From Pegea sp. RAD2-039 (taxonomy: Eukaryota > Chordata > Thaliacea > Salpida > Salpidae): a stretch of 64,000 bases of DNA. Where the stretch lies: assembly GCA_034620365.1 (NCBI GenBank), contig JAQGEQ010000048.1:434001-498000 (forward strand). The letters run 5' to 3'. A program made the translations under genes and the position numbers. The notes beneath the pieces are model-generated. The model ran no database searches. It was not told the DNA's origin and saw only the letters and a list, made by a program, of their open reading frames with translations. Each line of letters begins with the position of its first letter. The stretch's first letter is position 1. This document shows positions 2,660 to 59,900 of the stretch, piece by piece.

Positions 2660-5600
2660 GAAGGTTTTAAATAATTTTAGATTAATGACGATATTGATTT
2701 GATAAATTTAACCTAAAGATACATTTGCTAACGTCAAATTAATCATTAACTTTAATTAGAGCCGAGCGCAAATTACTATAAGTGAAAAAATTTTCAACTG
2801 AGAGGCAGTTACTGTAGTTTCAAGAGATGTTTGGAGATAAAGTTCATCTTTTTGATGTTTAACCAACAAAACAACATTTTCAAAAGTTTGTATTTTCATC
2901 ATCAACTCTTTCTGCCACTTCTAATTGTCAAATTATCTTTTTCTACGATGTAGCTAACTGTTCTAGCGAACGGATGGGGATTATGTAAGCAGCGGAGGTA
3001 TTTCTTACTGAACTTTGATCTCGTCTCAGATCTATCTTTTGTTCAACAGAAGTGATTTTTGTTAACGCTTTTATTAAATGAGATAAGATTTACATTTGTA
3101 ATGCAAATTTAACTACCTTAACTGGCCAAGTTGTCACAAATATAATTTTATCGGTAACTTAGGCGCCTGCATAATGAGTATAGAATAAGAGGGGGTCGGG
3201 AATGGGTGCCCAAAATTTGTAGTGACATGAAAAGAACAAAATAAGATATTTACAAAGTATTCTGTTATTATTTCATACAACTGTAGTTACTAATCACTGA
3301 AATTTACACAAATTACTTCAGCTTTATCGTCATCGTAGTAACACACAGAATGAAGACTAGGAAAAGATAAAGAACAAACAGAAACAACAAAAATAAAGAC
3401 ATGAAAAATTGTTTGATGACCACAAAACATAGTTGATGATGAAACAGTTAACGTCAACTCAAGCCCATCAAACAGATGAACAACTACAACAACTGAAATA
3501 TGGTAATCGATACACAAAATACTCAAACTTGAAAGAAATTTGAATGAAAACACAGCAAATTATCATCAACATCCGAAGAACAGATATAAAGTACAAGTCT
3601 GAAATATAATCAATATAGATACTTAACTGCTTTAGTTTAGCTTAAGCGCTGTTAGCATATACAAGATGATATTGATAGAAAGAGAAGTATTTGATGAAAT
3701 AAGCTACACAACGCAAGATAACTGGTCTTTTAATCGATTCAAAGAAGGTTTGTAAATTAAGAGTAAGAGAAGAGATAGAAGTTGGCGTGGTTGCAAAGAG
3801 AGATGCAACAAAACTTGCTTCACATAAACGAAATAGAAGAAACATTTAATGTAGTATTCCACATGCCGAAGAAATTCCTAAATGTATCTTACCTGTTGCT
3901 GCTGCCTCTTTAAATGCTCTATCATCTTATCTTTTCAGTTGTTAAAACATATAGCTAGGAAACAGTTAAACTATTTGATAAAAGACTTTTCCATTTTTAT
4001 CCAAAACAAACCAAGCATAAAACGAATGACAATGATGAGAATGCGGAGTAACCCTCTTTAGTGAAAACACAAGAGTTGAGATTTTAAGAAATCAAGTTGA
4101 AAATTGATATTGAAAAAAAAACAAATATTTGAAAGGAAAATATAGACAGCGACAAAAGGATAGCAACAAAAGAATGGTGGAAAGTTAGTGGGTGGAAAAA
4201 TTGTTCCGATATTTTGTTCAGTATTTCGACTGCAAAAGGCTGCGACAAAATTTTGCGTAAAAGCCATTAAAGAGTGAAAATTGTATTGAAGAAAGAAAAT
4301 CAATAGATTGCAAATTTGTCAGCGCATACTAATCAATAGGAGTTGGCTAGCTAGCTAGATGGCTCGCTGGTTTGCTAGGTGAGTGGGTTACTGATAACTT
4401 CTGGTTTCTAATAATGTTCGAGTTGTTTCGAAAAGGCTTGCTTCTTCTCTTGCTTGTTTTCGTTAAGATGAAATAAAAAGGAAGACAACACGATAGGAGG
4501 CCTGTGCTCTTACGTAATTTGCTCTATGACGCTAGAAAGCGTCGAGCCGAAAAGTTTATCGCTAAAAAAAGAGAATAAAGAGTGAGACGAAAAGCGCCTG
4601 TTTGCCGAGCAATCATGAAAATGAAGGAGCATAAGACGTAGGTGATGACGTGAACTGGGTGAATGATGGCGATAGACGCAAAACATAGAGCGTAACTCGC
4701 ATATGGAAAGTGTAAGAGGAAAGAGCAGCCTACTGCTGGTGCTGAGGGAGAGTAAGTGGAAATTGTGCGAATCGGAACATTGAGAACTGATTAACAAAAG
4801 TTAATGGTTCCACTTGTTGTAAGGGGATTTTATTGCACATTGGTTCATGAATTTTATATCAAATAACACAAGAACCAGAAAGTTGTTTGCTGAAACTGAT
4901 TTAAGTATAAATAGCCAATCAATTGATGAGGCAGAGAACACATCAACGTTGTTGTTGTTGAAAGATGCTTATAAAAGAGAGGGGGGTTGGTTTGTAGGAT
5001 CGGCACAAGTTTTACAAACAAGCTATTACCTAAACAAATCAATCAGTTTGCCTTGCAGTAACTAGACTTATATGTCGCCTTAAAAGCAGAAGCTCACATG
5101 CAAGATGGTTGGACTACTCCTTCAGCCCGCTTATCAATATTAAAAATTAGCAATTTACTTCAAGCTACTCATGCATCGAAAACACAAATAAGATAAAGAC
5201 ATAACGCAAAAAAAATGGGCAAAAAAGAGAATTTAATTACGATCAAGCAGAAAAGTGGTCAGTTTTCAGTTTTTCCCTAGTTAATTCATATTCTCTTGGG
5301 TATCAGATACACACACACACAACGTCCAATAACTCGTTTATCCTTCGCTTCCACGCACACAGTTTCGGGGTGAGGACCGCCGGTGCTTCAGGAGTGGTAC
5401 AAGAAGATGAAAATGACATAAGAGCAGGATAACGAAGTCGAGGGTGTTGATGTTGAACAGAAAAACGAAGTTGTCAATCCTTGCTGATAAGTTTGTAGGG
5501 GTATAAGAGACAGGTAGCCAAAAAAACACAAAATAAAGAAAACAACTTTCAAATAATGTTTGTAATTGGTTAAAAATCAAGAAGAAAAAATATCGATGAT

Positions 5601-6100: not shown

Positions 6101-9863
<3,763 letters not shown>

Positions 9864-31165: not shown

Positions 31166-34100
31166 CTAGCGATCCAAGACTTTCAGATATTTTTCATCAA
31201 AAAGTTTAGGTAGAAGCAAGTGTCTAAACACAAAAAGTAATTATATCAAGATAGGAAAAATTATTTCATTGAAATATAAGTTTGAAATTTAATGATCAAT
31301 TTATTTAATAAATACTTGCCTTATAGGTAATAGCAGCAGAATAATGACTGGAAATATCATTTTTAAATAATAATAGTCAGCAAAACCAAAGAAAGAAACA
31401 ACTCCTAGTTGAACCATCTGGGTAATTGTAAAAAAGTGAACTGTTCGTTGAGGTACTTTTCGCACATAATGGGTTGGTGGGTAAGAACTCTAAAAAAGAA
31501 ATTTTCTTAGTACTATTAAGTATATTGTCCAAATAAGCCAACTAATTAATGCAAAAAGTAATTCGAACTAAGTATAAAAAGTTTAAAAATATTTATTTAT
31601 TTAACACATGGCTGCGAGTGACAAATTCAACAGCTCTTAGCAAACAAAAACCAAATATATTATGAGCAAAGAGATAATTGGAACTCTTAGGTATCACAAT
31701 TTAAGATTAATGGAAAAGAATAGAAACACTGTAGAGGTATACGTAGAACGTAAATTGTGAGTAAAATATATAATATGACAAAATAAGAAAGTGAGGAAAC
31801 TGGCAGTGTTACATATTACTTGTTAAGGAAACTACTTAAATCGTTATCTTCAACAAAATTTTAAAAGATACGATAAATTTTGATGTAGTAATAGAAATAG
31901 CGTATTTTAGGGTGTATATTTGTGTATATGTCTTATTTTTCTTTTCTAAGCGATAAATGATCCAACGGACAATGATCATTTTCTCAGACTTACTTCTTCA
32001 GTGAAGAACAGCATCATTCGTTCGAACATCTGGTTTCCGATAAATGATGAAAATCCCAAGTACAGAAACAAACCCTGCATAACGAAACGTATCTTTTAAT
32101 ATAAACATTGAAGTTCAATTTTTGATTAATGTTTAGCATACTTTATTTGTTATTATTTTTACAGAGAAATATTTTTGATTAATCTAACTTTAAATTAAAT
32201 TCACTTTTTATTAAAGTAAGCTGGAATTGATCATTTTTTAATAATAAATTGGAGAGTTAATAAAGATTACTTGAAGCACTGATATTGGAATGAATTGCAG
32301 GATGTTTACGAATAGAAGTGAAACTCCAATTAGGATGTGAGATATAATTGCTGACAGCCTAGTTTCTCGAACTTTAACAATCCTGTAAATAAGTAAATTC
32401 AAATCACTATTCAATTGGAAGTAAATGTCGGATTTTTCAAAGTTCAAAAGTCAACAGTTTTATAAATCACTTAATTGGTTTTATAATCAATCATTACAAA
32501 AATTGTCAAACAATTTACTACAATTACAATAAAGTTATCTGTTTGGGAACACAAAAATTAGATAGAAATTGGATTATTTAGTAAACTTACTCATCATGCA
32601 CTGTTCCAAGGTTAGTGACATGCTGTTCGACATCAGCAAGGGCTCTTACATGCAACGGGGAGTGAGGTAATGCTGCATGAACCCACGGCAAGTTAAAAAT
32701 TGACAGAAAAGTGTTGATGATTGCTACTACTACCAAATCCCAATGATAAGCTGGTCCCTTATGTAACCTGAAGTAAAATAAGGAAACCAATTCTGAGGCT
32801 GCACCAAATTCAATTACAAAAGTCAAAATGAAATGATAACAAGTAATTAAAAATCCATAAAATGGTACTTACTTGTTTTGTGGAGCATTAACAAAAGCTG
32901 CAGACACATTTTGATCCACAAAAAATAGACAGCTGAGACATAAGCCGAGACCCATAGCTCCAAAGTGAGCTCCAACTGACAGAGACGAAATTGAAGGAAC
33001 TTTAAAACTGATTCCTTTATTTGGATCATAATAAAACTGTTCACCTAAACAAGTTTGAGAAATTAAAGGTAAAAAGAAAATATTGTATTAAAAAGTTTAG
33101 ATACTTACTTTTAATTTGTCGAAACACGTATGACCCTAGAAATGAGAAAAAGATAACTGATATTGGAAGAGCATAATCGGCGAGAATCTCTCGTTTCCTT
33201 GCTGACAAGTAAGGCCTTAAAAATGTTGTTACAATAAGTTAGATAATTACTAGTATCAGAAAATATCCTCTAAGTTAAGTCAAAAGTTCAAAATATTACA
33301 TTAAATTTGTAAAAACTGTCTCACAAATATAAGGTTAGATTAATTTCCATAATGATAAATCAACACTTGTGAATGTACCCAAGCATATTTTACAAAAAGT
33401 AGATTGTTATGTTACAAAACAAAATTGTTTTTTTAAAGTGTAATGTTGAGAAACGAACCGATATTGTTCAAAACAAATTGATTTTGTTCAACAAACTTAC
33501 GATTGATCAAATTTTAGTAGCGTGTAACCTAACCACAGAGTTCCCAACATCAACACTAGAAATAAAAGTGAGTTTTCTGGTCTGTAACAAAGACCTGTTT
33601 TGCTGCAGCTTTCGGTATAATTTATAAATGTTGCAGCTTCCGTAAGATTAGTAGGAGGAAAATGGTAGTTCTTCTTGAAATCTGTTCAAAAAAGCTAGCA
33701 TTAATATATTTTTGAAAAATAAGCACCACTGGTAAGTTTCTTGTGGTGTGAGACTTTATGAGTTTGATAAATCTAAATTAAGTGTTACCACAAAAATTTT
33801 TTGTATTTGGTAAAAGTTTTTGAGTAATCTAAATCAATTTTTTTAAGTATTTAAGTTATTTCTTCAGACACTGCCAGTTTCTTCATTTTCTTCACTTGTA
33901 TTAAACTTTTTATTCACAATTTATATTTTACTTGTTTTTCTATCCTTTCTAAATTAATTATTCTCAGTTGTGATGCTTAAGACCTTTTCATTACCTTTTC
34001 TCTCAAATTGTTTTGTTTTTTTTCACTATAACAGCTGTACAATTTGTCACTCGCAGCTTTGAACAAATAAATCAAACTAGATTTTTTCAAAACTCCACTT

Positions 34101-37100
34101 ACTACTTAACTCTATTTTTTTTATAAAGTATATTGTTTGGATTTTTAATCATTCTTTAGCAGTTACTAAATGATATAAACCTATAATACAAAGCTTGTAA
34201 AAGATATCAAACTTTGAAAATCAAGGGTGATTGAAACTAATAGAAAATAAAAAAAATCTTTCTTTAAAATCTAAGTAGTTGCTGAAGACTTACTAGAAAT
34301 TGTTCCTTTTATTGCATCAGAACAAAAGGCCAAGGCGATAAAGAAGCCAAAGATTTCCTCCGTTGACCTTCAGATGTAAGTTTTAAGTCAGATCATTAAG
34401 ACGATTTGTTTAAGTATTGATATAATTCTTTAAATCGAGAAATTTATAAACCTTGTAGAGAACTTCATTAGCTGGCTCAAGTTGAAAAAGGCTTCAAGCA
34501 GTAGAAAGATAGCATTCCAAATACCAACCATAGTGTACATTGCACTGAAGTCTAAAGTGAATTGAAGACTTACCATCTTTATAACTGTTTGAAAAATGTA
34601 ATTTTGTCAAAAGTTGTTTAATTACTTTCAATAATCAGTAATCATTTAGCTACAATAATTAACCTTTAACATATAGTGCCAAGGGAGCTGTGGTTAGCAT
34701 AATGAGCAAGGGTTGCCCGCTAAATACTGCAAACATAATTCCACCGATTGTTTGAGAGAGTATACAAGATGAGACGTCTGTACAATTTGAAGAAAATCAT
34801 TCTTTTTATTTTTCCAGTTTTGGAATTCTTATATGTAAAGCACAATTGTTTATGAGAAAGAATTAGAAAAGTTATTTACATTCTTCTTAAAACCTCATTA
34901 TCATGTACTTCCGGCGGAAAATTATTATGCATCCGTTGTAAGTAAGATAAAAATTGAAATATGACAACCTTCATAAATAGTTTACATACCTATTTTACCA
35001 TCTGTAAATTGTTCATACAAAGTACCAAATGCAATATCAGGTAACAAGCAAGCAAAGTAAAGAAAGAAAATAGTGGCTAGTAATTTGGAAATTGTATTTT
35101 TCCCTGTAAGTCCTATAATCAGAAAATAATTGTCGAATGGAGTAAACCTCAAATACAGATATCTAACCATCTGTATAATCAGACACATAATGGGGTAGCC
35201 GTCTCTTCAAATCATCATAAATTCCCACTCCACACTGCTTCCACGAATAACTCTGTTTTTATAAAACAATCATCATTATACTTTAAATGAAACAACAGCA
35301 AATTCTTATCTAACAGCTTTGATAAGGAAAAAGTTTCAAACTGTTTCATAAATGAATTTCAAAATAAAAACATTGAACAAAATCATTTTATAAACAAAAA
35401 TTTGTTTGAAGTCGAGTATTTTACTTGGAATTCAACTCCTGCATTCTCTTCGTGGGTGTTCTGATCTTCCAAATCTGACTTTGACTCACTCTTCAACTTT
35501 TTGAACTTATTATGATACTGTGTAAAAGCTTCTTTAACTTCAGTCTCATCATTTGCATTTTGTAGAAGAGCTCTGAAGTCAGAATCACAAAGTAGAGAAG
35601 AGAAAGTTCTTCCGATTTCCACGGCATTTTTGGTGAACTTTTCTTTAGTTGGTGCAATTACAACTACAACAAACTTTACTTCTTCACAATCAGTTCCAAG
35701 GTTAACTGGATTGCAAAGTCTTGCAATTGCTACATGACTCTTTTCAAGGTTGGGTAGTGAACAACTAAGATGTAAAAAAAAGAAGTTTTATTTGCGAGTT
35801 GATGTGGTTTAAAGATGATTTTAAGATACATTTTGCAAGATAATTACAAAAGATTGGTTTGTTTTATTTCAAATCACAAATTTATCATTATTTCAAAATG
35901 TTTAAAATATATTGATTTTCATCAAACAGAAATTAATTGTGTTTAATTACTACCATAATTGAAACATTGATTTTATCACTTTTCGTAAAAAGCATTGATG
36001 CTGCCACTTAAATACAGTAAAAGATTTGTCTCTAAGATTAGTTCTCCTGAAGTGATGTTGTTTATCATCGAGTATTTACCAGTCGAAGTATATCAGTCAA
36101 CAAATTTGATTCAACTTACACAGCAGTCACCCAAGTTTGTTCAAAGTCAGCTTGCTCCGGACGATAAACGACCCCTTGAATTGTCTCTCTCAGCTGGTTA
36201 ACTGACACAACTAGAAAAAGTTACTTAGAAGTTTTAAATAATCTAAATTGAACTAATTTTTATGAAATGTAATTTTTTACTTTCTTAAAAATTTAAGCAC
36301 AAAGATGTAAAGAAAAATTTATATGACATACATTAAAAACTATTTTTTTATGATTTATTTGTTGTCAAAGCTTATAATCCTCATAAGAAACATGAAATTG
36401 TAAAATTTCTGGTATTTCAGAACAAAACAACATTTTTGTTAGCATCTGACAGTTGAACTTATTTATCACTTTATAACATATTCAAAAAAAGTTTTTAACA
36501 ATTAACAAATTTTTAGTAGCTTTCAACTTTTGTAAAAACAAACTAACAGGAGTCCTGATATTCATCTTGAAATGTAAAAAATGCCTTTGCAGCTTGAGAA
36601 GTGATTTTTTCCGACACATCTAAATCTTTTTGCAGTTTTTTCAGCATTTCATCAACAATAAGATACAACTCTATGACGACAACAAAAAAATTAGGACACC
36701 ATATATATGAAGATAGAATTGTTATTCATAATTCTCAAATGTTTATTTTCTAAACTATAGAAATTCTGGTTTAAAATTTACTTGTGTGAGTGACATTTAA
36801 TGCAACAACTGGATTGACAAGAAAGCGTTGTATATCTCGATGTCCTCTGACTTCATCTTTAAAGTTTTTCAGAGGGATAGTCTGAAATGAGATGTGATTG
36901 ACAAAGTTATCTTTCATGATCAAATTTTACATAACGTATCGAAAATTCCAAAGATTTTGACCAAATTTTTAGCTATTATCTCTGACCTCAATATTTTCAA
37001 ATCAAGTATTGATTTAGAAACACTCAGTCAATGAAGTATGAAACATGTTATAGAAATCGATAAAGACAATTTTGAAAAGTTAAACTAACTTTTCTGATTT

Positions 37101-43076: not shown

Positions 43077-44698
43077 TTAAAGTTTTAAAAACCCAGAAAC
43101 ACTTCGCGAAAAGCCAGCACCGTTGTAATTAAAAGAAAGCAGTAATGCCAAAGTAGCAACACTGATAACCAACCAAACCATGTAAATAACATTCACAAAC
43201 CAATTGGAGAAAAATAATGGTGCATAATCTGCTATAACTGATCTGATACCACTGCAAAAAAAAAATTTTGTCAATGAAAGATCTTTTAAAAAAGATTACA
43301 CAAATGTGATATCTACATCTAAAACATATTTAAAAATCAATTTGGTATTGTTGTAAAAATTAATTAAGTTTTCACTGAACATTAAAGGAAAATTACAAAA
43401 CAAATAGATAAAGTTTGAAACATACAAATGGTTGTGATGAACCAAAATAGTCACAGTTGCAAAATCGACTAATGGGTTTCCAGGAATTACAAGACAACCT
43501 GTCATTCCAGCTAACAGTCCAACAGATAATATCCTATAAGTCTTCCATTTAAAGTTGGCGTTTTCTAAAAGTTAAGAAATACTTGTTAAAGTTTAATTAG
43601 ATTACTTAAATTGAAACTTTAAAGTAGAACATTAAAAAGAAGAAAAATTTACATTTAAATATTAATTATGTTTAAGAAAAAAAGGAAAATAAAAAGTTAT
43701 ATATCAGATTATATATATTTGATCAATCTAATTTTTGCCAATTATTTAAAGAAGTTTTAAATTAAAAGAATTAATTATCATAAAAATAAATTCTAAAACT
43801 TCTCAAGGTTTTGCAAATCAGCTTTTGTTACTCTGAGTTTGAAAACTTAAACATTTAACAATTTCCTCTTAAATTTATTTTTTAAGAATCTAATCATTGA
43901 TGTAAAGATTTTAAAAAATTGAAAAACCAAAGATGAATAAATCTGGTTTGTAAGTTCATCCAAAAAAGTTTTTTTTACCTTTTTGAAAGTTGAGGTTAAG
44001 AATCCAAGCTATATACTTTATAATGAAGAGATTTAAGTAACTTATGAAACAAAGGTATCGTTTTTTTTGCCAAGACTTTTAAAAGTCAAGAGATAAACTA
44101 TATCTCAAAATTTGGAGATTCCAAAATTAAAAAAAGAAAATTATAAGTTTCACAAGACTATTAAAAAAATATATAAATAAAAACTAAAAAAAATATAAAT
44201 AAATATTTATAGAATAAAATATATTTACTTTCAGAGAGAATTTGATGACGTAACTCATACGATTCAGGTCCACTCATCAATTGCTTGGAGTTGATAGCTG
44301 ATGCCAAGTTTGGTCGTAACAACTTGTGCATTACATGATGACCTAATAAACAAATAAAATTAGAAAAATATAAATTGTCAAATGAAGATTCATCACAAAA
44401 ATAAATTATTCTAAGGTCTTAAAATCAAACTTAAAGATAAAAGTATTCAAATCTACAAATGGTGACAAAAATTAAGTTATAAGTTACATTTTCACTGATA
44501 TTTTAAGACTATGAATAAATTTAGCAACTTTATAATTACTGAAAATATGATAATACAAATAAATTGAGACTTAATAATTACTTGATTGACAAAATAAATT
44601 ATTTAAACTGTTTAAAATACAAATATTATAATAAATTCACCTAAAATCAATTTACCTTTTTGAAAGCTCAGCAAAGAAGAACCAACTAGGTTAATCAT
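43077..44698 (-). CDS. SDHD: Succinate dehydrogenase cytochrome b small subunit (CybS, SDHD), mitochondrial
   Basis: A membrane anchor of respiratory complex II in the inner mitochondrial membrane. With SDHC it holds haem b and the ubiquinone site and passes electrons from succinate to ubiquinone. Coding exons: 44698-44656, 44342-44229, 43564-43426, 43251-43077. They sum to 471 nt (156 aa; human 159). A basic, serine-containing N-terminus (about 1-40) looks like a mitochondrial targeting peptide. Three hydrophobic spans follow: ILSVGLLAGMTGCLVIP (about 64-80), the segment DFATVTILVHH, and VNVIYMVWLVISVATLALLL. HHNHFG (95-100) aligns with human LHGHWG and supplies the haem-ligand His. ADY (106-108) aligns with the quinone-site Asp-Tyr of TDY. 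The end GFLKL matches the family ending. All introns are GT-AG and in frame. Confidence 0.93.
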
Positions 44699-47600
44699 TT
44701 TTATATTAAGAAGTAAATCTATGAAAACTATTGCTGATAAAATGTTTTTATGATTTAGAACTAAGAAAAAGATGCTCTTATTATAGCTTCATATTAAATA
44801 ATATCTTAAAAAATTTGTTCTTTTTATTCTATTTTCAAAGTGCATTATTATAATTACAAGCTTTTATAAATTTTATATAATACTTAGCATTCAATTTAAA
44901 TGAAATAAATAATACCAAGCAAAATGAATGATTTAATTATATATATAATTTAGTATTTATATAATCTGTTATCTTCGTGATGTTCTATGAATAAATATAA
45001 TTTGTAAATATAATAGAATACTAAGTAAATGTAAATAAATTTGGTACAAATATAAATGACATCTAAAATAATAAAACTAGCTTAAATAAGTAAAAATTTC
45101 AATATATTAAGATAAAACACAAGTTAATAAAGAAGTTGTAGACCATATAAGACTAAAATATTTAAAGATATATTTTGAAATTTAAAAAATATACCAGTAA
45201 ATTGATCAATAAGTTAACAAATATAAAAAAAAACAGCAATGGATAAAATTATAAATAAATAAAACTTATGGATAAAATATTATTATCTACATTTTTTAAA
45301 ATTGTATTGAACAATAATCATTAACTTAAACAATAGTTTTACTTTTAAATATTTAAAAAGTAAAGTTGGATGAAACAGTTAAATATTATTTTGCTATTTA
45401 ATCAAATCTAAATTAATTTAAAGCATGTTGTATAGAAGTCTATTGATAATTTTATAACTTTTTATATTATGGACAAACTTGTCACATAAAATACTTGTAA
45501 AGTTTAAATCAATAATTTTGTCATCTTCCATAAATTTATTTTCAACCAGTTCATTCTTTTAAAATATGTCCTTGAAAACAAAATCTTTATGTCATCCAAG
45601 AGTTTTTAATACAAAATTCAAGTTGAGTGGCTTAATTTGGCGTATAATTTCTATGAAACTTGAAATACTATTATGACCAATTATCATCGATAACAAACAT
45701 TTTTTAAAGTAATTCTCTTATTAGACGAACAAAAACCAAATTTTATGGAATCTTCCTAAAAACAATTTTTTTTGTTTTGATATCAATATTTAAAAAAAAT
45801 CTTAATTAAAAGCTGCATTACTTAAAAGCAAATAGAATATTTAAGCTGAAAGAAATTCGAAAGATAACAAATTTATATTACTAATAACTTTTATAAGAAA
45901 AAGTCTCAGATAGTAGTATTCAAACAATGTATTTTTACAATATCATCCTTCTTATGATTATACCTACAATAGTTTTACTTTAAATTTTTTTAATGTTCAA
46001 GATTGATATTTTATAAAAATGAGGTTCATCTTTCTTAATTTTGGACTTTTATTTGTTTAATTTATTAACTCTGAGCAATATTAAAATACATTTTCAAGGT
46101 ATTTTTTACTCTACTTTATTTTTCATCTTAATATCTTTTAATCATTCAATAATGAGAAAACGCGTCAGACTAAAATCTAATAGAAGGCAATAAAATTGTT
46201 TTTTTCAAGTGTTATTTGCTACACAACAAAAAGAAAAATGATAAAAATAATACTTTTCTAGTCCTGCATTTGAATAAGGACACTCTTTATCAAAAGTCTT
46301 GATCATAAACTAAAATATTTTTTTTATTCTAATAAGAAATTTTTGCATGCTATATTACACTTCCTTACTAAAGAGTAACAATTTTTCCAACTAGGCTTTA
46401 GCTGCAGCTTCTAAAAGACTTATTATTATTTGAGGTGCTTTCGGCACGCTTTCTTAGTTTTTTTTTCAAAGTTATTGTCAAACTTCCTAGATTCTTTCTA
46501 GATATTTTTTTCATTAATATTTACTGCTTTAAGGAACTATTTCGACTTTAAAACGTATTATTCTACTTTAATTGCAGATTTCTGCCACGTTAACAGAAAA
46601 TATTTTCTTTAGAATCTCTTCTCATTGCAACAGTAGTGACACTTTTTAGTCAGAAGCTTGAAACTTTTTCAAACAGCTTGAAATTTTTAAACAGAAAAAA
46701 TTAGATATTTAATCTATAGATATGAAAACTCACTTTTTGCATTAACATAATATGAAAACTCACTTTTTGCATTAACATAAAGGACCTCGAGATATATAAT
46801 ATCCTTAATTTGTAGAGCTTTTATGACCAATTTTGTAGTAAGTTGTAGGAGTGCAAGCTTTCCTTAAAGTCACAGAAATTGGTCATTAGTACAGCTCGAG
46901 GTGCAATGAGATGGCGAACAACGTTTGATAAAATTTGATGTTATACAATAATTGAAATATTTTATATCTTGGCAGTAAAAAAGAAAACCCATTTTTCTCT
47001 AAAGCTTTCTAATTGTAGTTGTGTCTTACCATCAGCTAGACTGAGTCAACTTGGTTTTAAAAAAAGACCTGGCAATAAAAGTTGCCTATTTTGTTCGAGG
47101 ACACTACAGTTACAAAGTATTTCGATCTAGGTTTCGTGGATTTAGTCTGAGCTGGTTTTGGAAAATGCAATGATCCTAAACTTATACTTTTAAAAGTTGT
47201 TTCTTTTTCAGTTTCAAGTCTCAATTTTCGTGTGAAGTCTTTTTTTCATCACATTAATGTACAAAAGAATATTTTTCATCTTGATCTTTACTATTAATTC
47301 TGGTATTACTCCTTGTATTATTAAATCATTGATCACATTATAGAAAGTTTTACTAAACTTTACTACCTATCGTCAATTTTAATTTGTTGTTAATTTATCG
47401 TCTATTTTGGGAAGTAAATACTTTTCTACCAGTAAAATGATTTCATTTGGACGAAGTTACTGTATTGACGAGTAAGTATTTTGGATTATGAAGATCTTTT
47501 CAAATTCTTGTATTTGTTACTGAAAATATTTTTACTTAATGGAGATACTTTCAATTTAAATGTAAAAGCCTTGTAAGTTTCTTGGAAGTCTTATATTGAT

Positions 47601-48891
47601 ATTTCTATGGATTTGTTTAAATCTTAAATATAATGTCTTAGAATGTAATGACCATCAAATTTGTAAAGAAAATTGTAACAAAGTATAATTTCCCTCATCA
47701 GAACAATGTACTAAAACACAATCATAATCCAAACAAATCATAAATTAATAAATTGCAATTAGCAAGCTTAGTTGATAAGTAACATAAAAACACTAATTAT
47801 ATAAATTAAATCAGATCATATAAAAAATCTATTAAACAGTTATGATTAAATTAAAACCGTATGTGCTTTTGGAAAAGTTTAAATTTTATTTAAATTGAAG
47901 AAAGGTGTTTATAATTTTTTTTTAATTTTTCGTGCAGCATAAAGTCCACTTAAAATATTATTATTTAGTTTCTTACTCATATCTCATGGAATTTATAGAA
48001 ATTAAAAGTACTCTTATATTTAATATGAGAAACTTTCTGAGAATGAAATACTATCTTTTTAAATTTCTAACTTTTTCAACAAGTTTCATAAAATATTTAA
48101 TGTGTATTTTATGAATATAAATATAAACCAAAAAAGTACTATCTATTAATAAATATTTACATTATTCTAAGACAGTGCTATTTATTTTTAAACTCAAAAA
48201 GATAAAATCAGTTGAAGTATAATCATAAGACTAAAAATAAATTAAAAATTCTAACAAATTTATATTTCAAAGAATATTCTAGAATCTTGAACATGATCTA
48301 TCTCAGCTTACTAATGTGGTTATGACAGTTTTCAAATATTATCATATAGATGATACCTAAATTTATTTAAATTGAGACCTTCCTAAAGCACAAAACTGTA
48401 CTTAATATATTTTTTTCCATGGGCAAGAATAGACCATTTCAATTTAAGCTTTTATTTAAGTTTTTTAAATTGGTCAAACCATAATTTAACATCATAAAAC
48501 TAGAAACCAATAGTTTAAAAATATTTGACATGTAATAATATTGTTCCAATTATTATCTTATATCAAAACAAAATTCGAAAAGTCACCTTAACATTAAGAG
48601 ATTCAAGCAGAAAATACTTTAATCTCATTATTGGTTTTAGATTTTCAGATATAAATGGTTGTTTTGAAAATGATCTTACCATAAAACATCAAAGTTATTT
48701 TTTACCCTCAAATTGATAAGGTTGTCAAGTGTTAAATTCAAATACAAATTACTGTAAAATTAAAAATTAAGCTTTAAATTTTTTGTGCATTGAAAGAATA
48801 CATTTGTTTAGAAATCTTTTATTTGCTAAAATATAGTATAAAATCTTAATATAACAATTTAAGTTATTACAAACGCGTTCTCTCAAGTTAG
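44699..48891. other. Gene-free AT-rich DNA
   Basis: No exon or RNA gene is supported. From about 45.5 kb the + strand shifts to T excess. It contains only the short tandem duplication listed separately. The frame 47932-48114 (60 aa) is low-complexity. Confidence 0.45.
46721..46780 (+). repeat. Exact 30-bp tandem duplication
   Basis: Two adjacent identical 30-base units (46721-46750 and 46751-46780) each begin TATGAAAACTCACTTTTTGC. Exact identity implies a recent slippage or duplication event. Confidence 0.95.
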
Positions 48892-48902
48892 ACGCGTGCA
48901 GT

Positions 48903-48930
48903 GTGTATGTGCATTAAAAAGTATATATAA
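48903..48930 (+). promoter_or_regulatory. Promoter-like block with TATA box, copy A
   Basis: A 28-nt block identical in both copies ends in TATATATAA (48922-48930). About 30 bases downstream lies another identical block (TTCAGACCACGCCTTC, 48955-48970) with an initiator-like TCAGA. The spacing fits a TATA-dependent Pol II start near 48953-48958. Confidence 0.4.
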
Positions 48931-49016
48931 AGCAAGCATAAGCTTGGTCACTCCTTCAGACCACGCCTTCAAACTGCCAGTTGTTTTTCAGAGCTGTTAC
49001 AACTTTCATTGCTATC

Positions 49017-49082
49017 TTGAGGACTAACATCACCGAGCTTTTAAGAATCTTTTATCTTAAGCTCGATGTCGTTAGCCCTGAA
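49017..49082 (+). ncRNA. Hairpin I, copy A (pre-miRNA-like)
   Basis: The 5' arm (from TTGAGGACTAAC) pairs with the 3' arm (to GTTAGCCCTGAA). About 19 of 24 arm positions pair, with scattered single mismatches and a loop of about 18 nt containing AGAATCTTTTATC, which is identical in copy B. Size and shape resemble an animal pre-miRNA. No known miRNA seed was recognised. Confidence 0.45.
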
Positions 49083-49169
49083 TTTAGCAGCTTTCAAAAG
49101 TTGTATTTATTTCTGAATGATTTAAGTCTAAAAAGTTTATAGTTATTCTGTATAAGGTTATCAACTCAT

Positions 49170-49226
49170 GAGGTAGTTTTCAGTGTAGCTCCAATGTAAG
49201 TTCTTGGACTGCACTTAAGCTACCTT
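49170..49226 (+). ncRNA. Hairpin II, copy A (pre-miRNA-like)
   Basis: The arm beginning GAGGTAGTTTTCAGTGTAG folds back on GGACTGCACTTAAGCTACCTT with about 18 pairs, including G-U, and small bulges. The 5' arm has GAGGTAG as in the let-7 seed, but the rest does not match let-7 and copy B lacks it, so this is not a let-7 gene. Confidence 0.4.
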
Positions 49227-49588
49227 GCAAATTGGTAATCACTTTTCATCAAGTAACTAATAAAAATAAAACAAATTAAGCTTAAATATTCTGATTATGC
49301 TCAGAAAACTTTCAAAGCTTAGACTTAGCAGTCTACGACAAAAGGAACTACTTTTGAATTCATTTTTACATAGAACTTAAATAACATTTATAAATTCAGA
49401 TTTTTATAGATTGATACTTGATTTGAAAACTTTATACATTGACAAAGTGTCCCCTTTGCTAAAATTTTATAATCTTAATTACTGTACAGCTTATTTTCCA
49501 GCCAAACTAAAGCTGTTCAAATCCTTTTTTTAATATTTTCCAACACACTTTTGCATTATATTTTAAAATACATTCAAAATTATTGCAA

Positions 49589-52323
49589 CATCTATTGCAG
49601 AACCGGCGTGTTATGAAAATACACAGAGACATTTAATGTTTTTCTCCTTTATTATGATTTTGTTTTTGATGAGCTTATTAAGTTACAATTCAATCTTATG
49701 AACAAAGGTTTAGCTTTGAATTATTTTTCACATTAGTTTAAAATGTATATGTTTAACTGAATCTAGTTGGCAGCTACATTTTGTTTTAAACTCTATAAAA
49801 AACGTTTTAGTTGATTAATTAAATTTCATACAAAAAGTTTAGATCAATTGTTCTAGGATAAATACACATAAATCCATTCATATGAATATATTTTTTAAAT
49901 CATGCATTCTACAGTTTATTAGATTAATTCTTATTTTTAAGCATATATTTAAAAATAATAATATTTAGAAATTTTATATCAGTCTGTTATCCACTAGTTA
50001 GTTCCAAAATATAAATAAAATATTTTGACAAAAAAACTAAAAGAAACTTTAACTTCAAATAACTTGTTTATTTCTTAAACTTTAGACCCATTCTTAAGCT
50101 AGATGAGAAAAACAGAAATTTATATTGAAACATTTATATTTTATTTTCATCAAATACAGCAAGGCAGAGATAATTCTACTTTTCTTCTTCAACTACTTTT
50201 TCCAAAATAAGCATAAGAGTATTTGGAGTAATTAGTAACATCTTATGTAAAAAATTACGAAATGTTAATGTTCCTAAGTTTGATATAATATGTTTTATAG
50301 TCTTGTGTACACATCTGATCTTAGATGACATTTTTATTACTCATACAAAGATTTTCTAGCAATATAGACAACAAAATGATTTGTATGCAGATAATTAAAA
50401 AAGTTTCTATTAATTAAAACTCAGTTTACTTTGATTATAAAATTGTAAGTAGGCACCCATCAAAGTGGAATTAATTTTAAGTTTATTTAGTTCTTTTTTT
50501 TCTGATTTTAATCATTGAAATGTTTATCATTTTGATTTTATCATTTTACTTAATTGGACATTACTATTTTCAGTCATTTAATTTTATAAAATTTGTTCAA
50601 GATCCAGTTGTAATTATTCAACTGAAGTTACAAACTATTTATAAAAAGTTATTAAACAAAACCCTACATTTAAAAAAATAATTATATTCTTGACAAATTT
50701 CAAAAAAATTTTCTTTCTTTATTCTTTCTAGAAAAAGAAATTATTTTGTAAATCAGTACACAATTCACTTTTTTCTTATTTATGATTATCAAATATAAAT
50801 TTTGGAGATTTTATTTAAAAAAAATATATTAAATTTTCTCAACAAAAGTAAAAACTTTACACATTTAATTGTGCTAGGCTAAATTACTAAAAAAAGTATT
50901 TTTCGGTTTCAATTTATCTTTAAAAATCTAATGTGAAACACTAGAATCATTGTAGAAATCTAGATACCTTTATATAGTTACTATTTCTGATTTTAACCAA
51001 TTATAAGAATGAAGTAATGAATGTTTTTTAATTTGATATTTATAATTATTACAAATTTGATAAGTTATTAACAATAATAAAAAATACTTTAAGATATCAA
51101 TTAAATATAAGTTTTGTTGAAAGCAAGCTTTTTATCAAATATGAAACTTAATATAATATTAGTTGAAGACTTTTTATTACGTAAATATTTACTAATAATA
51201 TTTACAAAATGTTAAAAATAAAGTTTTCTTAAATATATATACTCTTTTTATATTTTTATCTGTTATTAATTGTTTATAAATACAAAAGCAGTTGTTTTAG
51301 ATCAAAGTTTATCAAAATAAACTTGTCACTATATTTTCTTTTAATTTTTTTTCAAGATTTTAAGCTAATTAAACTAGAGATTAAATAAAAGGAATATATC
51401 TTTGGATGACAAATGACTGGTTAACAAACGGTTCTCGTATTATCAGAGATTTAAAGCAACGAAACTTCATTGTTGATGTATTTGTATAAACCTTTGCAAT
51501 TAGTTGATATAATTAACCAACTTTTACACAATTCAATCCTATTTATATTGTACTTATTCTAAAGAAAAGTTTACAGTTAGACTTTATAATTTTAGTTTAT
51601 TGTCATTTTAGTATATCAAAATGGAATATTACCAGTTAATTGTAGCTAAAGAAAAAAGATTTTCAGAAAATCAAATTATTGAAATCATTAATATTTATAT
51701 TTGTCAGTTGTTTTAAAAGTCTTTTAAAAAGATGTTTATAATGTTAAAAATAAATGTGTATCCAGCTTTGTCTTCAATTTCAGCCTTAGATAAAATTTCC
51801 ACAAAAATCTTAATATTCAAAATTTGTTTTAAACAAATTACAATTTAGAAATGTTAACTTTTTGCAATATTTAAATTACAAAATATCTTTAGCAATTGTT
51901 ATCAGAATCTATTATTTATGTTACACTTTTTAAAGTCTTAACACTGTATAATGCTTCCAAATTGATTTAAATATTTTAAACTGGAGATGAAAATTTAAAC
52001 ATTTACTTTGAGATAATACAGTTGAATAAAAATACACATTTAACAAATTAATTCTTTCAAAATGAAATTTTATAATGGTGTTGATTATTATAAATGCTAT
52101 CACAATAATAATACTTGATAGAAATAATCTGACTAAATTTTTGTATCACACGAAAGTGCTTTTACTTTAAAATAAAATTTTTATTTTCTAGCAATAAGTT
52201 GTATTTATATAAAATATAAATAAAGTTTAATCAGGCCAATGTTTATCTCATTGGCTAAAATATATTACTTAACTACTTATTTTAAAAATTATGTTATGAA
52301 ATCAAGAAATTACTTTTAATAAA
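49589..52323. other. T-rich spacer between the two duplicated units
   Basis: I see no gene or repeat in this stretch. It is AT-rich with T excess on the + strand. Confidence 0.45.
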
Positions 52324-52332
52324 ACGCGCGCA

Positions 52333-52360
52333 GTGTATGTGCATTAAAAAGTATATATAA
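52333..52360 (+). promoter_or_regulatory. Promoter-like block with TATA box, copy B
   Basis: Identical to the copy A block over 28 nt, with TATATATAA at 52352-52360 and the TTCAGACC block 25 nt farther on. It is the longest perfect match in the upstream half of the unit, as expected of a functional promoter. Confidence 0.4.
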
Positions 52361-52448
52361 GGCAAACACAAACTTAGTCACTCTTTCAGACCACGCCTTC
52401 GAATAACGTTTCGTTCCTCCAAATTTACTTCGACGTTTGATTGCTATC

Positions 52449-52512
52449 TTGGATACTATCGTCACCGAGCTTAAAGAATCTTTTATCTTAAGCTCGGTGC
52501 GTTAGTCTTCAA
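52449..52512 (+). ncRNA. Hairpin I, copy B (pre-miRNA-like)
   Basis: A nearly perfect stem: CACCGAGCTTAA pairs completely with TTAAGCTCGGTG around a 13-nt loop. The stem continues outward with TTGGATACTATCG against CGTTAGTCTTCAA. About 23 pairs form in total with one bulge and two mismatches. It is the more stable of the two copies. Confidence 0.5.
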
Positions 52513-52584
52513 GTTAGAAACTTACTGCAGCTGCTATATTCTTATATAAAATTGTTAATAATTCTGGTAGAGATTATCAAATCA

Positions 52585-52639
52585 CAAGGTATACATAAGT
52601 GTAGTGGCAAATATTTCCTACTACACTTAAGCTACCTTG
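52585..52639 (+). ncRNA. Hairpin II, copy B (pre-miRNA-like)
   Basis: Seven outer pairs (CAAGGTA with TACCTTG), a small internal loop, then twelve inner pairs (TAAGTGTAGTGG with CTACTACACTTA) enclose a loop of about 10 nt. The 3' arm is nearly identical to copy A while the 5' arm differs yet still pairs. Confidence 0.5.
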
Positions 52640-53522
52640 CAAATTGGTAATCACTTTTCATCAAGTGCCTAATAAAAATAGAATAAATTAAGCTTGAAGA
52701 TTCTGATTATTTTCAAACAACTTTCAAAGCTTAGCTTAGCATTCTACGACAAAGGGAATTGCTTTTCAATTCATTTTTGCATAGAACTTAAATAACTTTT
52801 ATAAATTCAGAATTTTGTAGATTGTCAATGTATAAAGTTTTCAAATCAAGTATCAAAGTGTCCCCTTTGCTAAAATTTTATGATCTTCTTAATTACTGTG
52901 CAGCTTGCTTTCCATACAAACTAAAGCTGTTCAAATCCGCTTTTTAATATTTCCCAAAACACTTTGGGATAGTTTGTTTCAAAATTATTGCAAAATTAAA
53001 TTTGTTTTTCTTTTTATAAACTTGCAGCAGACAGTTAATGTTTTCATTAAAACTATTTTTTTAAGAATTTATTATAATGAAATTTATTTAAAAACAACTT
53101 TTCAGTATAGTGTTGCTTTTCAAACAAATTCAAAACTTATTTTGAAAATAAAATATTGAGTTTATGTTTAACTAAATATAATTTATAAGTTTTTCATTCA
53201 TTTTTATGCAATAAATAATATGGTTTTATCACTTCAATCAATTTTGATTGTAATTTGAAAGAATCATGAAAATTATAAAAACTTATTTTTGTTGAAATTG
53301 TTGAAGAAAAGTAAAACAAAAGTTTTATCTCAACATTTTTACAGAAGTACTATTTTAAAAGCATTATCTTTAATACTTTTTTATCGAATCACTTCAAGAT
53401 AATTTGTTTTGATAAAATATATAATTTTTTTTATAAGTGTTTGATTTATATCTCAAGATTTAATAAAAACCAAAACTCAAGTGTTATAAGAAACTAAAAC
53501 TTACAGATCAGGAGTTAATTGG

Positions 53523-53909
53523 TCAACAACCAAACTTTCTTTCAACTTCTTGTCCTTCCACCTTCATTTTGTAACTTAATTCATTTTCCTTTTTCGCTAA
53601 ATTAGTACTCAGTACTAGCGAAGTCCGGCAAATTGGCATCCTAGAAGTAGGCGGACGAAAAATGGAAAATGTAGGACTCAAATGAAGTGAAGAGCTGCCA
53701 AGAATCTGAAAAGTTCTGACTAAAATGGGAATAAAAACTCATTTTCTGAATCGTACCTGCATCCCTAGACACACTGTATCCTGATTGAGAAGAATTGCGA
53801 GACTCTTTGAAGTCAATTTATTACAATCAGAGAACGTCGATCGGCGAGTGATGCAGATTTCCTCCCATTTCCTGTCATAGTCCTCTTTTTGTGGACTGAA
53901 GAGGGACAT
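53523..53909 (-). CDS. Unidentified two-exon gene candidate, 111 aa
   Basis: Exon a (53909-53757) starts MSLFSPQKEDYDRKWEEICI and ends at CAG|GTACG. Exon b (53705-53523) follows a 51-base T-rich intron ending TTTTCAG, stays open for 60 codons (with KKENELSYKMKVEGQEVERK) and stops at TGA. The junction is in phase, and the intron is like the 50-base intron in the TSC22-family gene. Base composition is more balanced than the surroundings. The stretch TRRSTFSDCNKLTSKSLAIL...Q has heptad-like spacing loosely like the first SNARE motif of SNAP-25 relatives, but I do not regard that as identification. An alternative acceptor (TTCTAG at about 53656) would give a shorter end, and a GTAAGT near 53505 hints that transcription continues. 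Confidence 0.35.
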
Positions 53910-56900
53910 TGAAGAGCTCCATGAACGAAAAGTCAACTGAATGTTACTGGCCAAATTATTCGGAAACTGAATTTTTTTCAAAATATTTTTGTTTCTACTT
54001 TCAAATCTTCCATTTTAATTCCGTTTTTATTCTTCCAACTTTAGTTTTTGTTACTGATAATATTTTTCTAATTATCTTATCGATAAAGGCAATAACTTTT
54101 GACAAGTTTTGAAAGTTTATTATTCACTAGATTAGTATTATTTGGACTATTTCAGTAATTTGCTGAAATTTTTATCTTAGTTTGGATTGCAGAGATTTTA
54201 TCAAAAACTTTATGAATTAGCTTTGAACTCGATAAAAAGTACTTTCTGTGTATCTTTAAGACCTATAAAATAATTTTTACGATTGCGTAAATAAATTTGA
54301 TATCAAATGCTAGAAAGGTGGTTTAAACTCTATATAGAGCAAAAACTTTAGTAAAATGTTGATGGGCGACAATGATTTACAAAAAAGTCAATAAATTGTT
54401 GTCATTCAGACAAGCTTTGCTCCAGAAGATTAAAGTTGCTTGGAGGCTTCCTTACAGCAACTAGTGTATCCAAACAGATTGTAAAACATCTACTTGATGG
54501 TACTCTATTTGCTAGTAATGGTCAACAGATTTTGAGTATTATATTACAAAGCTAAGTTACTTACATACAAACAACTACTTGATGATAGCTATCATAGTAG
54601 TAGTAATCTATAGCTGACTTAACGGATACTTCCGCTAGGGGTATTTTCCTTCTTAGCTAGAAAAACATTACTATTGATTTTTTCGAAAAAACTCATTAGT
54701 ATTTTTCAAAAATTTGCAAATTCTTACTTTAATGATTTAACAAGTAATTTTTGTTGTTGAAATCTTTTTCTTCATTGGATGAAAATATAGTTAATAACTT
54801 ATTACCGAAGCCAGATAACTTCACTTTTTAAAAATTGTATTTATCTACTGCCAATGAATGTAAAAGTTATATTCTTATAAAATTTTACTGAGTTTAATGA
54901 TAAAATTAGTTTCAGTTCTTTTATAACTACATTCTATACCTTTCAACTAAAAACTTTATTTTATATCTTTTGATAACATACTTTCTGTTATAACTGCATT
55001 TTTTTGTAAAGTGCGCATGCCACAGAAATTGCTTGCTCCTAGTAATAAGTTTCGATTCTGATTCACTTGTATTCATAAAAGAGTCAATAGTTAAGTTGCT
55101 TTCAACATTCCAAATGGTTCGAAACGAAACAAGCATAAATAGATTAAACTAAAATATTGTCATTAATCGAAATAAACAATTATAAATATCTCTACAGTAC
55201 AGTTATTAAAAATTTATTGATAAAACTATTTGAAAACGCTAGATGAAAAAGCTTTGCAAAAAACTAAGTTTTTGTATTTTTACTTCTTGAAAATCGTATA
55301 CGGAGGTTTAATTTTTTTAAGATAAAAAGTCTGAATGGGTTTACAGTTTCAAAAAACCTATTTTAAATTTTACATTTTAATAGTTTTTAGTTACTTGGTA
55401 TTAAAATGTTTCATGTTATACTTTAAGTCTTAAAAATATCTCGTCATCTTTTACAATAATGCAACTTAATCTGATGAAATACTACACCAAACTCGCTAAG
55501 CATTGTAAAAACTACTTCCTCTTTTTATTTAAAGCACTTTGAATTAATTTTAAAGAGGTTAGAAGTCTTAATTTTAAATCTATATTTGATCATCAATTCC
55601 AAATAGCTAGTATTTTCTTCACTTTTTGACATGTAAGGTCTTTGCAAGAGATTCAAATTTGGTTTATAAGATCTTATAAAAGATGACATTGAAATTATAA
55701 AAAAGGTGCACATTGAAATCGATAATTCCAAATCAATATCATTTGGTATAAAAATGTATAAAGAATTGTAGATTGAATTGACCTGTTTCACTGACTCGTA
55801 TAAATTATTAGTCTTATGCGATTCATTAATTGCAATATTTCTAACATAGAATGCTAGATTTACTTGCAAACTTTATCTAAGTTTTCATTTAAGCAACCAA
55901 AAATAAAATGTATATTTTAATTGATCAGTCAATAGACTTCAATTGGAACTGACATACTTAAAAGCTTTTCAGTAAAAATAAACTAGTTTATGTGACTTGA
56001 AATATCTAAATTTGATTTACATTTAAGAAGTCTGCTTTCGATAAAATATCTTGATAAGTATAAAGATAAGAACAGGTTACATTTGGTGTAAGTAAGATAT
56101 ATTGATCTGTTTAACATATTATCTTTATTTATCCTTGCTCATTGATAAGATATTTCACCAGCTCATCACAAAAAATAAAAGATTTTTGCATCAAATTAAG
56201 TTTATCAAAAACGAAGAAACTCGGAGAAAATAAATAACAATCCAGTAAGAAATGTTAGCTATAGTACACCTAAAACAGTTTATAAGTCGTTTGTAATCCT
56301 CGAAAGTTTTTAAAAACTTTACATTATAGTTTCTTGTTTGTTATTCGCTGCATTAAAACAAATTTAAACTTTTTTAGGATAAAAATATGCGAGTTGAAAG
56401 TTAGAATTTGTTTATTTGCTATCCATTTGGTATATCTATACCAAAATTTCTACTTTGTCAATTAAAATATTCAGACAGGTAAGTGATGTAATAAATCAAT
56501 TATAGCATCATTGCAGTTTTAAATTTTTCGAGGTTCATTAAAATTAATAGTTTTTAAGTTATCATATCTACCGTTTTACCACCATGCTGTACATAAAATA
56601 CCTAAAATTCTACTAGAAAATCAATTTTAGTATTTTTCATAACTTGCTTTTTCCGCGTAATTAAATATTTTCTTAATACTTCAGGATGTTTAGTGGGGCA
56701 TGTACTTAAAATAAGCCACTACAGCTTGTATGCAAGTTGAAGAAAAATATATTAATTTAAATTTTGGAAGGAAACTATGTATAATATTTTGTTTTCACAA
56801 TATGTTACGTCTCATTAAGCTAAGTAAATTTAAAGCAGGCTTGACTGGTAAAATAAGGTTTTAAATTTTCAAACAATCTACTTTAAAGGTTAAGAAATTG

Positions 56901-59900
56901 TTAAGAAATATGTCTTGCTCTAGAAACGTTGTGATAGCTTCACAATTTATTTTATAGATATCCTGACAATCTTAAATACGATCTCATAATATTACATCAA
57001 ATTTACTTCGCAGTGTTTCCACTGCTACTTGTTTAATATTTCTTCTTTTAATTATCTAAGATAATGTAGACATCAACTTTACAAAAATTTACCTAAAATT
57101 TTAATATTTCAGAAATGTTATCGAGAAAATACCGTTTTTTTCATTTAAGTTTAGCTAATATTAAGATGTTTCTTAGTCTGTTTTTAATATAGCTATTACC
57201 AAATATTTCTATTGTTTATTGGAATTAATAAAATTTCATCATTTGAACTATCATGAATATCTTTTAATCAAAAGTTCAATCTGTACAAGAAATATTCTTG
57301 AATAAAGATATAAATCAATAATATAACTTTTTGTTACTTAATTTACCGTTGCGAAATTGCTTCCAATAGCAAACAACGCAAACAAAAAAACAAGAATCTT
57401 TTGTAATATTAAAAATTTGTAAAGTTGATTAATTTAAAATGAAAAAAGGATAATTATTTTTAAAGAATGTTTCAAAATTAGTTTTTGTAATTCAGCATCT
57501 ATGGAAGCTCTAATCCATGCACCTCTTTTGTTATTAATTAGGACATAACAACGTTATAAGCTAAAAAAATTTATTGTAAAGGCCACAAAAATTAAAAAAA
57601 GCTATTTTAACAAACAATTTTTGTTAGATTTTTGCAACATTCTACAAAGTTGGTTTCTAGAAGTTCTCAAAAACGATTGTTGCTCTTTAACAATTATTTT
57701 ACTACAGACCACCTTCTACATTCAATTGTTTTTCAAAAAGATCTAATTACTTTTATAATCAGCATTTTAACGTACTCAAAAGTTCTTTGTGCTTTCTGAT
57801 ATTATTTTTATGTAATGTTGTAATAGTTGTTCATTAAGTCTGTATCAGCCTTTTTTTTTTACATTCTCATTATATCTTAAGTTTTTTACAATGTACTCTA
57901 ATAAGCGACGTAAGCTGTTTTTTAGCGTATATCTGTAAATGTTTAGTTTTTGCACATTTGAGATTTCTTAACAAAAGTATTTGCTAAAAATAGATTGCCT
58001 GACATCAAAAAGTTTACACAAATTGATAGTAACTGCTAAATACGGCTTTCTTTCGACGAATCGGTATTGACAGCTTAACAGCATTTAAGTAAATGGAAAG
58101 TTTCTTTAAAATTAATTAACGATATTGTCAGTAGTCTGTTTCTATGGATATTCTGGTTTTTATTTTTTTATCAAATTAATATCAATATTTCTTTTTAACG
58201 ATGAATTAGTTATAAAATTACTGACATAAATATTCAATAAATCAAAAAATGTTCAGTTAAGGTTACACTTATCAATCTTTATCAAAAAATTTCTTCCTAA
58301 AATTTATTTTTATGTTCTGAAGAGTGGCAGATAGGTAACTTTCTAATTAAATTTTCTTGAAAAGCAATCACCAGATCAGTTACTTTACTGATCATTAAGA
58401 TGCTACTTAGATCAACAAGCAAGAGATTTATCACTGAAGTTTTTACAAGTTAAGGTGTTTAATTGACTCAAAATACTTTTTATAAGATTGTTGTACTAAA
58501 AATGACTTGAGCCATTGTACAAATAGAAGCTTCCACAAAAGTCTGCAGTCAATTGATTTATACATTTTAATAAAATTTTTACGAAAAATCAATAAACTTT
58601 TAGCTGTTGATATATTGAGCATAAGCTTATAAATAAGCAAACAAAAATAACTAGTTGTATAAACGAGACTTTTTAATCTACGCGAATATATCAAATTTAC
58701 ACCGAAAAGTTATATTAAAATTTTAATCATTTTTTAACTGTCGGATAATTGAAGTTTTAATAAAGTAAAGCAAACATAGATTTTTTAGTATCAGTAAATT
58801 ACTTATTACCTTAAAAATGTTCTACTAAATAAGGCTTTAAGTAAACATTATTACTTTTAGAAGCATTAGCACTTGATAAACAAAATAATATTTTTGTAGG
58901 ATTTGCTTTTGCTTTCAACTTACTGGTAAAATATTTTATTAAGATTTTTTTCAACTTTTTCTTCATGTGTTTACCTAAAACAATTAGATATTTCCTCAAA
59001 AAATTTTCCTTCTAAAAATATTTATATTAATAAGGATCAGAGTTAGTTAAATTACATTTTTGCTTACTGGATGTTTTTGTGATTAATTAGATCCTTTTAA
59101 ATTGCCGACATCAATTCATTATTTAAGGTTTGATTTATCTTCCCATCTGAGCACACTTTGTTACTTTTTCGAATACTTTTTTGATTACCAATCTAACCAC
59201 AAATCCTAAATCATTGAAATTATCTTGTTCAAAGTATAAAATAAGCTTTCTTATTTTAATTACATAAAAATATAGAAAAAGCCTTATAAAATAATTATTA
59301 TAGTTATGAGAGAAAATTTTAATTTTATTCAAAAGGTGCAACTTAGCGTCGAATACAAGTTTAGTAAATTTCTCTAGTACTTCTTTAAATATTTTAATAG
59401 TGATTAAGCTGTAAGTAATACAGTTTAAACAACATTACAAAGCTTTTTTAGTTTTGTTTTTTACACTCTTATAAAACCTACTTAAATTTTATAATTAAAA
59501 AAACCTCAAGCATCATGTAAAAGTGCTAACTCAAAATTTTGAAAAATATCAAAAATAGGAGGATGAAAACCGTCAGCGGCTTAAAACCACTAAAATTGAT
59601 TTGATTGAAACAAATTTGGTCTTTTCTGAATAAATTATGCAAAAATATCTTATCACAAGTCATAGTATAAATGCCAATTCAGCTATACTGTCGGAAAACA
59701 GAACAAACAGAACTGAAATTCATTTGAATACAGTAAAAAACTGATGATTAGTAGGAGCTGTAGTGATGTAGTGCTTCAGGCTTGCAAGTTTTAGCTGTAA
59801 CCACTCGTACATAAAAAGAAATGATTTTATTAAGAGCTTATTATAAAAATGATTTATTTCCAAAAAACGACTGTTTGTAACCCGTCTGCAGCACACATAT

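Follow-up and report, generated by a model that had tools for sequence, protein, structure and literature searches.

We suggest that a unit of about 0.7 kb, present twice in the window (the whole 64-kb stretch of DNA analysed here, G000:C262:434001-498000 of a 105.7-Mb assembly of 387 contigs), belongs to a small family of lineage-specific primary-microRNA genes, three paralogues that each carry two hairpins. The two copies in the window are termed A and B, and a third, C, lies elsewhere on the same contig. A primary microRNA gene is the best fit to the combination of TATA box, initiator-like leader, paired hairpins of pre-microRNA size and lack of coding constraint, and we hold this assignment with modest confidence. 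Every copy would have a TATA promoter of its own, from which RNA polymerase II would transcribe the + strand. The transcript would be non-coding and would carry two pre-microRNA-type hairpins, which lie about 60-70 nt apart from end to end and not at the roughly 90 nt given in an earlier note on this DNA. Drosha and Dicer would then cut the hairpins to ~22-nt RNAs that guide Argonaute. If the hairpins are processed, the unit is a further lineage-specific microRNA cluster, whose three paralogues go back to an old and a young split, and it offers a clean case in which one arm is fixed and the other drifts.

Folding of the two hairpins

The two stem-loops that the earlier note described in each copy hold up well against dinucleotide shuffles. 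On the + strand the z-scores are -5.5 (A) and -8.0 (B) for hairpin 1 and -5.5 (A) and -4.4 (B) for hairpin 2, and none of 200 shuffles folded as low as any of the four. In a blind scan of both strands with 90-nt sliding folds (6,391 windows, merged by place), the hairpins of A and B took ranks 1-4 in the 64 kb. The consensus of the three copies has 28 pairs in hairpin 1 and 32 in hairpin 2 (28 in the main stem plus a 4-bp side stem). Across the three copies, 95.2% (hairpin 1) and 97.9% (hairpin 2) of the cells that should pair do so, against 24-43% with a slid partner. Animal microRNA hairpins are expected to be unbranched with at least 16 duplex pairs, and here each fold is a single hairpin, with 28 and 28 pairs in the main stems. 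The precursor from hairpin 2 would measure ~61 nt by hand count. In A, hairpin 2 has six G-U pairs and one A-C on the + strand, which agrees with the direction of the putative promoter.

Conservation between the copies

Identity between A and B is very uneven along the unit. The promoter region (85%), the leader (84%) and hairpin 1 (84%) are well kept, while the linker before hairpin 1 and that between the hairpins stand at 49% and 54%. Hairpin 2 is 77% identical overall, and this figure hides a sharp asymmetry: the 3' arm is 95% identical (21/22 positions), the 5' arm 59% (13/22) and the loop 46% (6 of 13 aligned positions). Pairing is mostly retained in spite of the changes in the 5' arm, and two pairs are changed on both sides. 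With the 3' arm kept, the 5' arm and loop changing and the pairing mostly retained, hairpin 2 looks as it would if one arm were the conserved mature product and the other a partner free to drift. Further on, identity is 100% in a 43-nt block, 88% in 49255-49410 and 87% in 49446-49592. The 43-nt block, which the earlier note had singled out, matches at 43/43 positions between A and B and is the same in C. There are three long identical runs (43, 28 and 28 nt); when columns were permuted 20,000 times, a run as long as the longest arose 9 times and a sum as high as that of the top three never. This pattern, in which promoter, stems and one arm are kept and the linkers and a loop fall to about 50%, points to old constraint.

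The promoter-like block of TATA type that had been said to be common to the copies is confirmed as 28 nt identical in A, B and C. Below it lies a conserved initiator-like stretch, and the familiar spacing of a TATA box and an initiator would put a likely start of transcription near 48958 in A and 52388 in B (Table 1). A transcript of RNA polymerase III was considered and rejected. The leader of A has a run of five T (48984-48988) and the loop of hairpin 1 has TTTT in A, B and C alike, so such a transcript would be expected to end early.

Drosha cuts about 11 bp above the basal junction, and a CNNC motif is known 16-18 nt below the cut. Applied to hairpin 2 of A, this distance would give arms at about 49169-49190 and 49208-49229. 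The CNNC of the 43-nt block would then lie 18 nt below the cut, which would explain why the block reaches as far as it does.

Table 1. Features of the unit and of the duplicated segment (window positions unless stated).
Feature	Position	Strand	Basis	Remarks
Copy A of conserved unit	48892..49592	+	self-alignment	from promoter block to where A-B homology stops
Copy B of conserved unit	52323..52998	+	self-alignment	
Copy C of conserved unit	G000:C262 about 70529-71073	-	genome blast	
Promoter-like block, A	48903..48930	+		28 nt; contains TATATATAA; identical in A, B, C; putative promoter
Promoter-like block, B	52333..52360	+	pattern search	28 nt
Initiator-like stretch	48948..48974	+	alignment	conserved, below TATA; likely start near 48958
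Hairpin 1, A	49008..49092	+	folding	8-nt loop
Hairpin 2, A	49155..49241	+	folding	basal stem of 9 bp; UGAGGUAG on 5' arm
Hairpin 1, B	52440..52522	+	folding	
Hairpin 2, B	52571..52653	+	folding	
Invariant block, A	49212..49254	+	alignment	43 nt; most of hairpin-2 3' arm, basal stem and next 13-14 nt; CNNC at 49247-49250
Invariant block, B	52624..52666	+	alignment	43 nt
AATAAA	A 49259..49264; B from 52671	+		kept in A, B, C; possible poly(A) signal
Downstream stretch	49255..49592	+	alignment	87-88% A-B identity outside inversion
Inverted block	A 49411..49445; B 52822-52856		35/35 as reverse complement	35 nt; inverted in A relative to B
Segment holding copy B	51626..57067		96-97% identity	5.4 kb; recurs inverted ~415 kb away on same contig
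Inverted partner of segment	G000:C262 about 66448-71771 (L009 449-5772)		blast	copy C inside

Number and history of the copies

Alignment of the window with itself by blastn pairs 48821-49582 with 52250-52998 in direct orientation at 76% identity, and ungapped repeat families give a spacing of 3,405-3,432, so the two direct copies about 3.4 kb apart are as first described. The GC content of the window is 20-38% in 2-kb steps. Blast searches of the genome with 48892-49300 (E-value 0.001) and with 49200-49600 (E-value 10) returned A, B and C only; in the second search the inverted 35 nt of B and another part of C were listed separately. Pattern searches with up to three mismatches for the 28-nt TATA block, a 23-nt core of hairpin 1 and a 30-nt part of the 43-nt block likewise found these three copies only. 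Repeat counts from these searches are lower bounds; in both blast searches the first pass gave three candidates, all of which were scored. Hundreds of copies had been named as the sign of an ordinary mobile element, and three were found. A dispersed mobile element is unlikely because of this number. The unit does resemble a miniature inverted-repeat transposable element (MITE) or a short interspersed nuclear element (SINE) in being short, AT-rich, non-coding and hairpin-forming. It differs from them in its three copies, two of which are explained by one segmental duplication, in having no terminal inverted repeats listed and in the TATA-type look of its promoter.

A and B, whose linkers are only 49-54% identical, are the products of an old tandem duplication; B and C, which are young by the few substitutions in their flanks, are those of a recent inverted segmental duplication. 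A shares only the 0.7-kb unit with the B/C segment (blast, E-values up to 1e-6). Copy C has lost ~125 nt corresponding to 52795-52919 of the window. At the sites of the element where B and C differ, A agrees with C nine times, with B five times and with neither twice (indel columns counted). Since A sides with C more often than with B, gene conversion between A and B is disfavoured as the source of their likeness.

Downstream stretch and reading frame

The AATAAA had been taken as the end of the shared unit. Homology in fact runs ~330 nt beyond it, to about 49592. Within this part, the inverted block is 40% identical when compared in register; its match in inverted orientation is perfect although the flanks differ by ~12%.

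The statement that the copies share no protein frame needs qualification. There is a stop-free frame of 50 codons common to both (49381-49530 in A, 52792-52944 in B), and what stands is that this frame is without coding constraint. Outside the inversion, seven of eight changed codons are replacements and one is silent, and the changes are spread 4/4/3 over the codon positions. The frame looks non-coding because of this share of replacements and the even spread, and a protein-coding gene was rejected for want of an excess of silent changes.

Known RNA families and let-7

The hairpins had been said to match no known RNA, and this holds for Rfam 15, in which no family reaches its gathering cut-off in the window. 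The best score listed in A or B is mir-556 on the - strand, at 24.6 bits against a cut-off of 84. No tRNA was found by ARAGORN with the bacterial code, and six sequence words looked for in 5.39 million papers occurred in a single paper, which is unrelated.

Rfam cut-offs can miss microRNA genes of this animal, as its own let-7-like group indicates. This group consists of four tandem hairpins within ~570 bp on the - strand of another contig (G000:C42:53785-54357, L027), each with TGAGGTAG on the 5' arm and the seed intact. The four score 47.0, 46.9, 43.1 and 26.2 bits, each below the cut-off of 53.5, and the fourth is weak (E-value 0.23). The genome search scored 57 of 15,419 candidates and listed six matches, all outside copy A and none over the cut-off. 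RNase III domains occur at two loci, on contigs C4 and C103 (four matches over the Pfam cut-off, not assigned to Drosha or Dicer). An animal microRNA gene calls for a host with canonical microRNA genes and RNase III processing enzymes, and here the let-7-like group and the RNase III domains are found together in one genome, which makes microRNA processing plausible. Elsewhere, L028 (G000:C258:2138698-2138779) is a long, near-perfect hairpin with let-7 scores of 35.4 and 33.0 bits on its two strands, below the cut-off; it has the look of a palindromic repeat.

Hairpin 2 of A is itself reminiscent of let-7. It has UGAGGUAGU at the place where an 11-bp basal stem would put the 5' end, and it agrees with the 5' arm of one of the animal's own let-7 hairpins at 16/24 positions (counted by eye). 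A model of hairpin 2 matches an own let-7 locus weakly, at 15 bits (E-value 0.11) against a chance level of 14.2 bits in the window. The GAGGUAG seed on the 5' arm is present in one of the three copies, A; B and C carry CAAGGUAU at that place, and the kept arm is the 3' one. Among the let-7 relatives in Rfam, mir-84 scores highest, yet its 16.4 bits compare with a cut-off of 60, and let-7 itself (RF00027) is not listed for A at E-values up to 5. The seed in A largely follows from the pairing of the 5' arm with the kept CUACCUU. A pattern built from the positions shared by A and the own let-7 gave two exact matches that are circular and were left unused, and its reversed control gave 12 matches with up to one mismatch. 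Membership of let-7 is not supported, given the weak scores, the seed in A alone and the conserved 3' arm; we regard the seed as a lead.

Discussion

The unit can be compared with the polycistronic animal microRNA genes that make up lineage-specific families in the sense of MirGeneDB. Like these, it would place two hairpins, each ~80-90 nt long and with a basal stem, on a single RNA polymerase II transcript; it also has no constrained frame, a hairpin 2 with one arm kept and the other free, and a host with let-7-like genes. Unlike them, it matches no family, its conservation extends far past the hairpins and hairpin 1 is ambiguous in strand. For a microRNA to be annotated, two reads of ~22 nt are asked for, each with a constant 5' end and the two offset by 2 nt.

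Some published figures from rotifers bear on such genes. Our guess at the host is a monogonont rotifer; the GC content given for monogononts is 24.95-31.14% (PMC11954553). A 23-nt spliced leader of bdelloid rotifers has no match at 2 mismatches, and the assembly gave no COX1 match. MirGeneDB includes a rotifer (PMC8728216). For Brachionus plicatilis, 54 microRNA genes are recognised, and novel species-specific ones are predicted in rotifers (PMC12256650). The mean precursor of monogonont rotifers is given as 69 nt (PMC12256650), near that of hairpin 2, which is relevant only if the host is such an animal.

Several observations weigh against a primary microRNA gene. The most direct comes from B and C: 19 of 547 aligned sites have changed in the element against 125 of 4,748 in the flanks (12 of these within the last 42 sites, at the frayed end), so there is no slowing, and the 3 of 180 sites changed in the hairpins (counted from the alignment) are too few to judge. 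The case for constraint thus rests on the comparison of A and B. Covariation among the three sequences is not significant, since shuffles scored as high in 175/500 (hairpin 1) and 48/500 (hairpin 2). Hairpin 1 fits less well: its 8-nt loop is conserved, its precursor would be short, and in A it has no G-U and two A-C on the + strand. The folds give a mixed picture of the strand. Compared with the + strand, the - strand gives a lower z-score for A hairpin 1 (-8.4 against -5.5) and for B hairpin 2 (-5.9 against -4.4), a clearly poorer one for A hairpin 2 (-2.1 against -5.5) and a similar one for B hairpin 1 (-7.8 against -8.0). A CNNC match is frequent by chance, and the ~330 conserved nt past hairpin 2 are not accounted for by microRNAs. 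Of 14 prokaryote genomes searched for let-7 as controls, 6 also gave matches below the cut-off (E-values up to 10), so only the top three let-7 matches (E-values up to 7e-6) carry weight by score. When A is compared with B, the putative mature arm of hairpin 2 is conserved above loop and flanks; in hairpin 1 the loop is conserved as well, and B and C show no excess. The earlier note had called the unit a functional RNA gene. The conservation between A and B, the folds and the three copies speak for this part of its claim, and the rate of change between B and C speaks against it.

The extent of conservation suggests another reading, in which the unit makes a long non-coding RNA with a defined structure, some 0.3-0.65 kb in length, whose hairpins would bind protein or serve as architecture and would yield no microRNAs. 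It would explain why 87-88% identity persists for ~330 nt past the hairpins, why loop and arms of hairpin 1 are conserved alike and why the leader below the TATA box is conserved. Against this, two downstream stretches of A fold no better than shuffles (z -1.00 and -1.02), copy C has lost ~125 nt of the downstream part, and hairpin 2 has the one-arm pattern typical of microRNAs. We consider this reading unlikely. A bolder version, which seems to us quite unlikely, would have the whole ~0.65-kb unit, driven by a TATA promoter of its own, represent a structured non-coding RNA of a new type, in which hairpins and conserved tail act jointly and the hairpins are not, or not only, microRNA precursors; in a smaller variant, A, which lies outside the let-7 group, would have recruited a let-7 seed on its free arm.

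The rate of change between B and C, equal in element and flanks, would suit a mobile element in decay or a simple duplication that has no function, as would the deletion in C and the private differences relative to A, nine in B and five in C (indel columns counted). What such decay leaves poorly explained are the identical runs of 43, 28 and 28 nt between linkers that are 49-54% identical, the more so with conversion between A and B disfavoured by nine to five. Only three copies were found in 105.7 Mb, and in a survey that was no dedicated test, which gave 100 inverted pairs in 48000-54000, the 25 longest included no pair linking both ends of one unit. We give decay little credence. A cis-regulatory element acting as DNA, such as paired palindromes bound by a protein, would allow for the mixed strand preference of the folds, but six G-U against one A-C in hairpin 2 of A suit an RNA stem better and the TATA box and initiator-like stretch have kept the distance expected where a gene begins. 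We judge this reading very improbable.

Other observations

Elsewhere in the window, 46720-46780 holds a 30-nt unit in two perfect head-to-tail copies. Exon pieces on the - strand (7260-7817, 32587-32868, 35383-35787 and 43296-43571) resemble a G-protein beta subunit, an SLC4-type bicarbonate transporter and, weakly, the succinate dehydrogenase small subunit. For the SLC4-type pieces, the membrane part scores over the Pfam cut-off and the cytoplasmic part below it. Arrays of TTAGGG occur on three contigs of the assembly.

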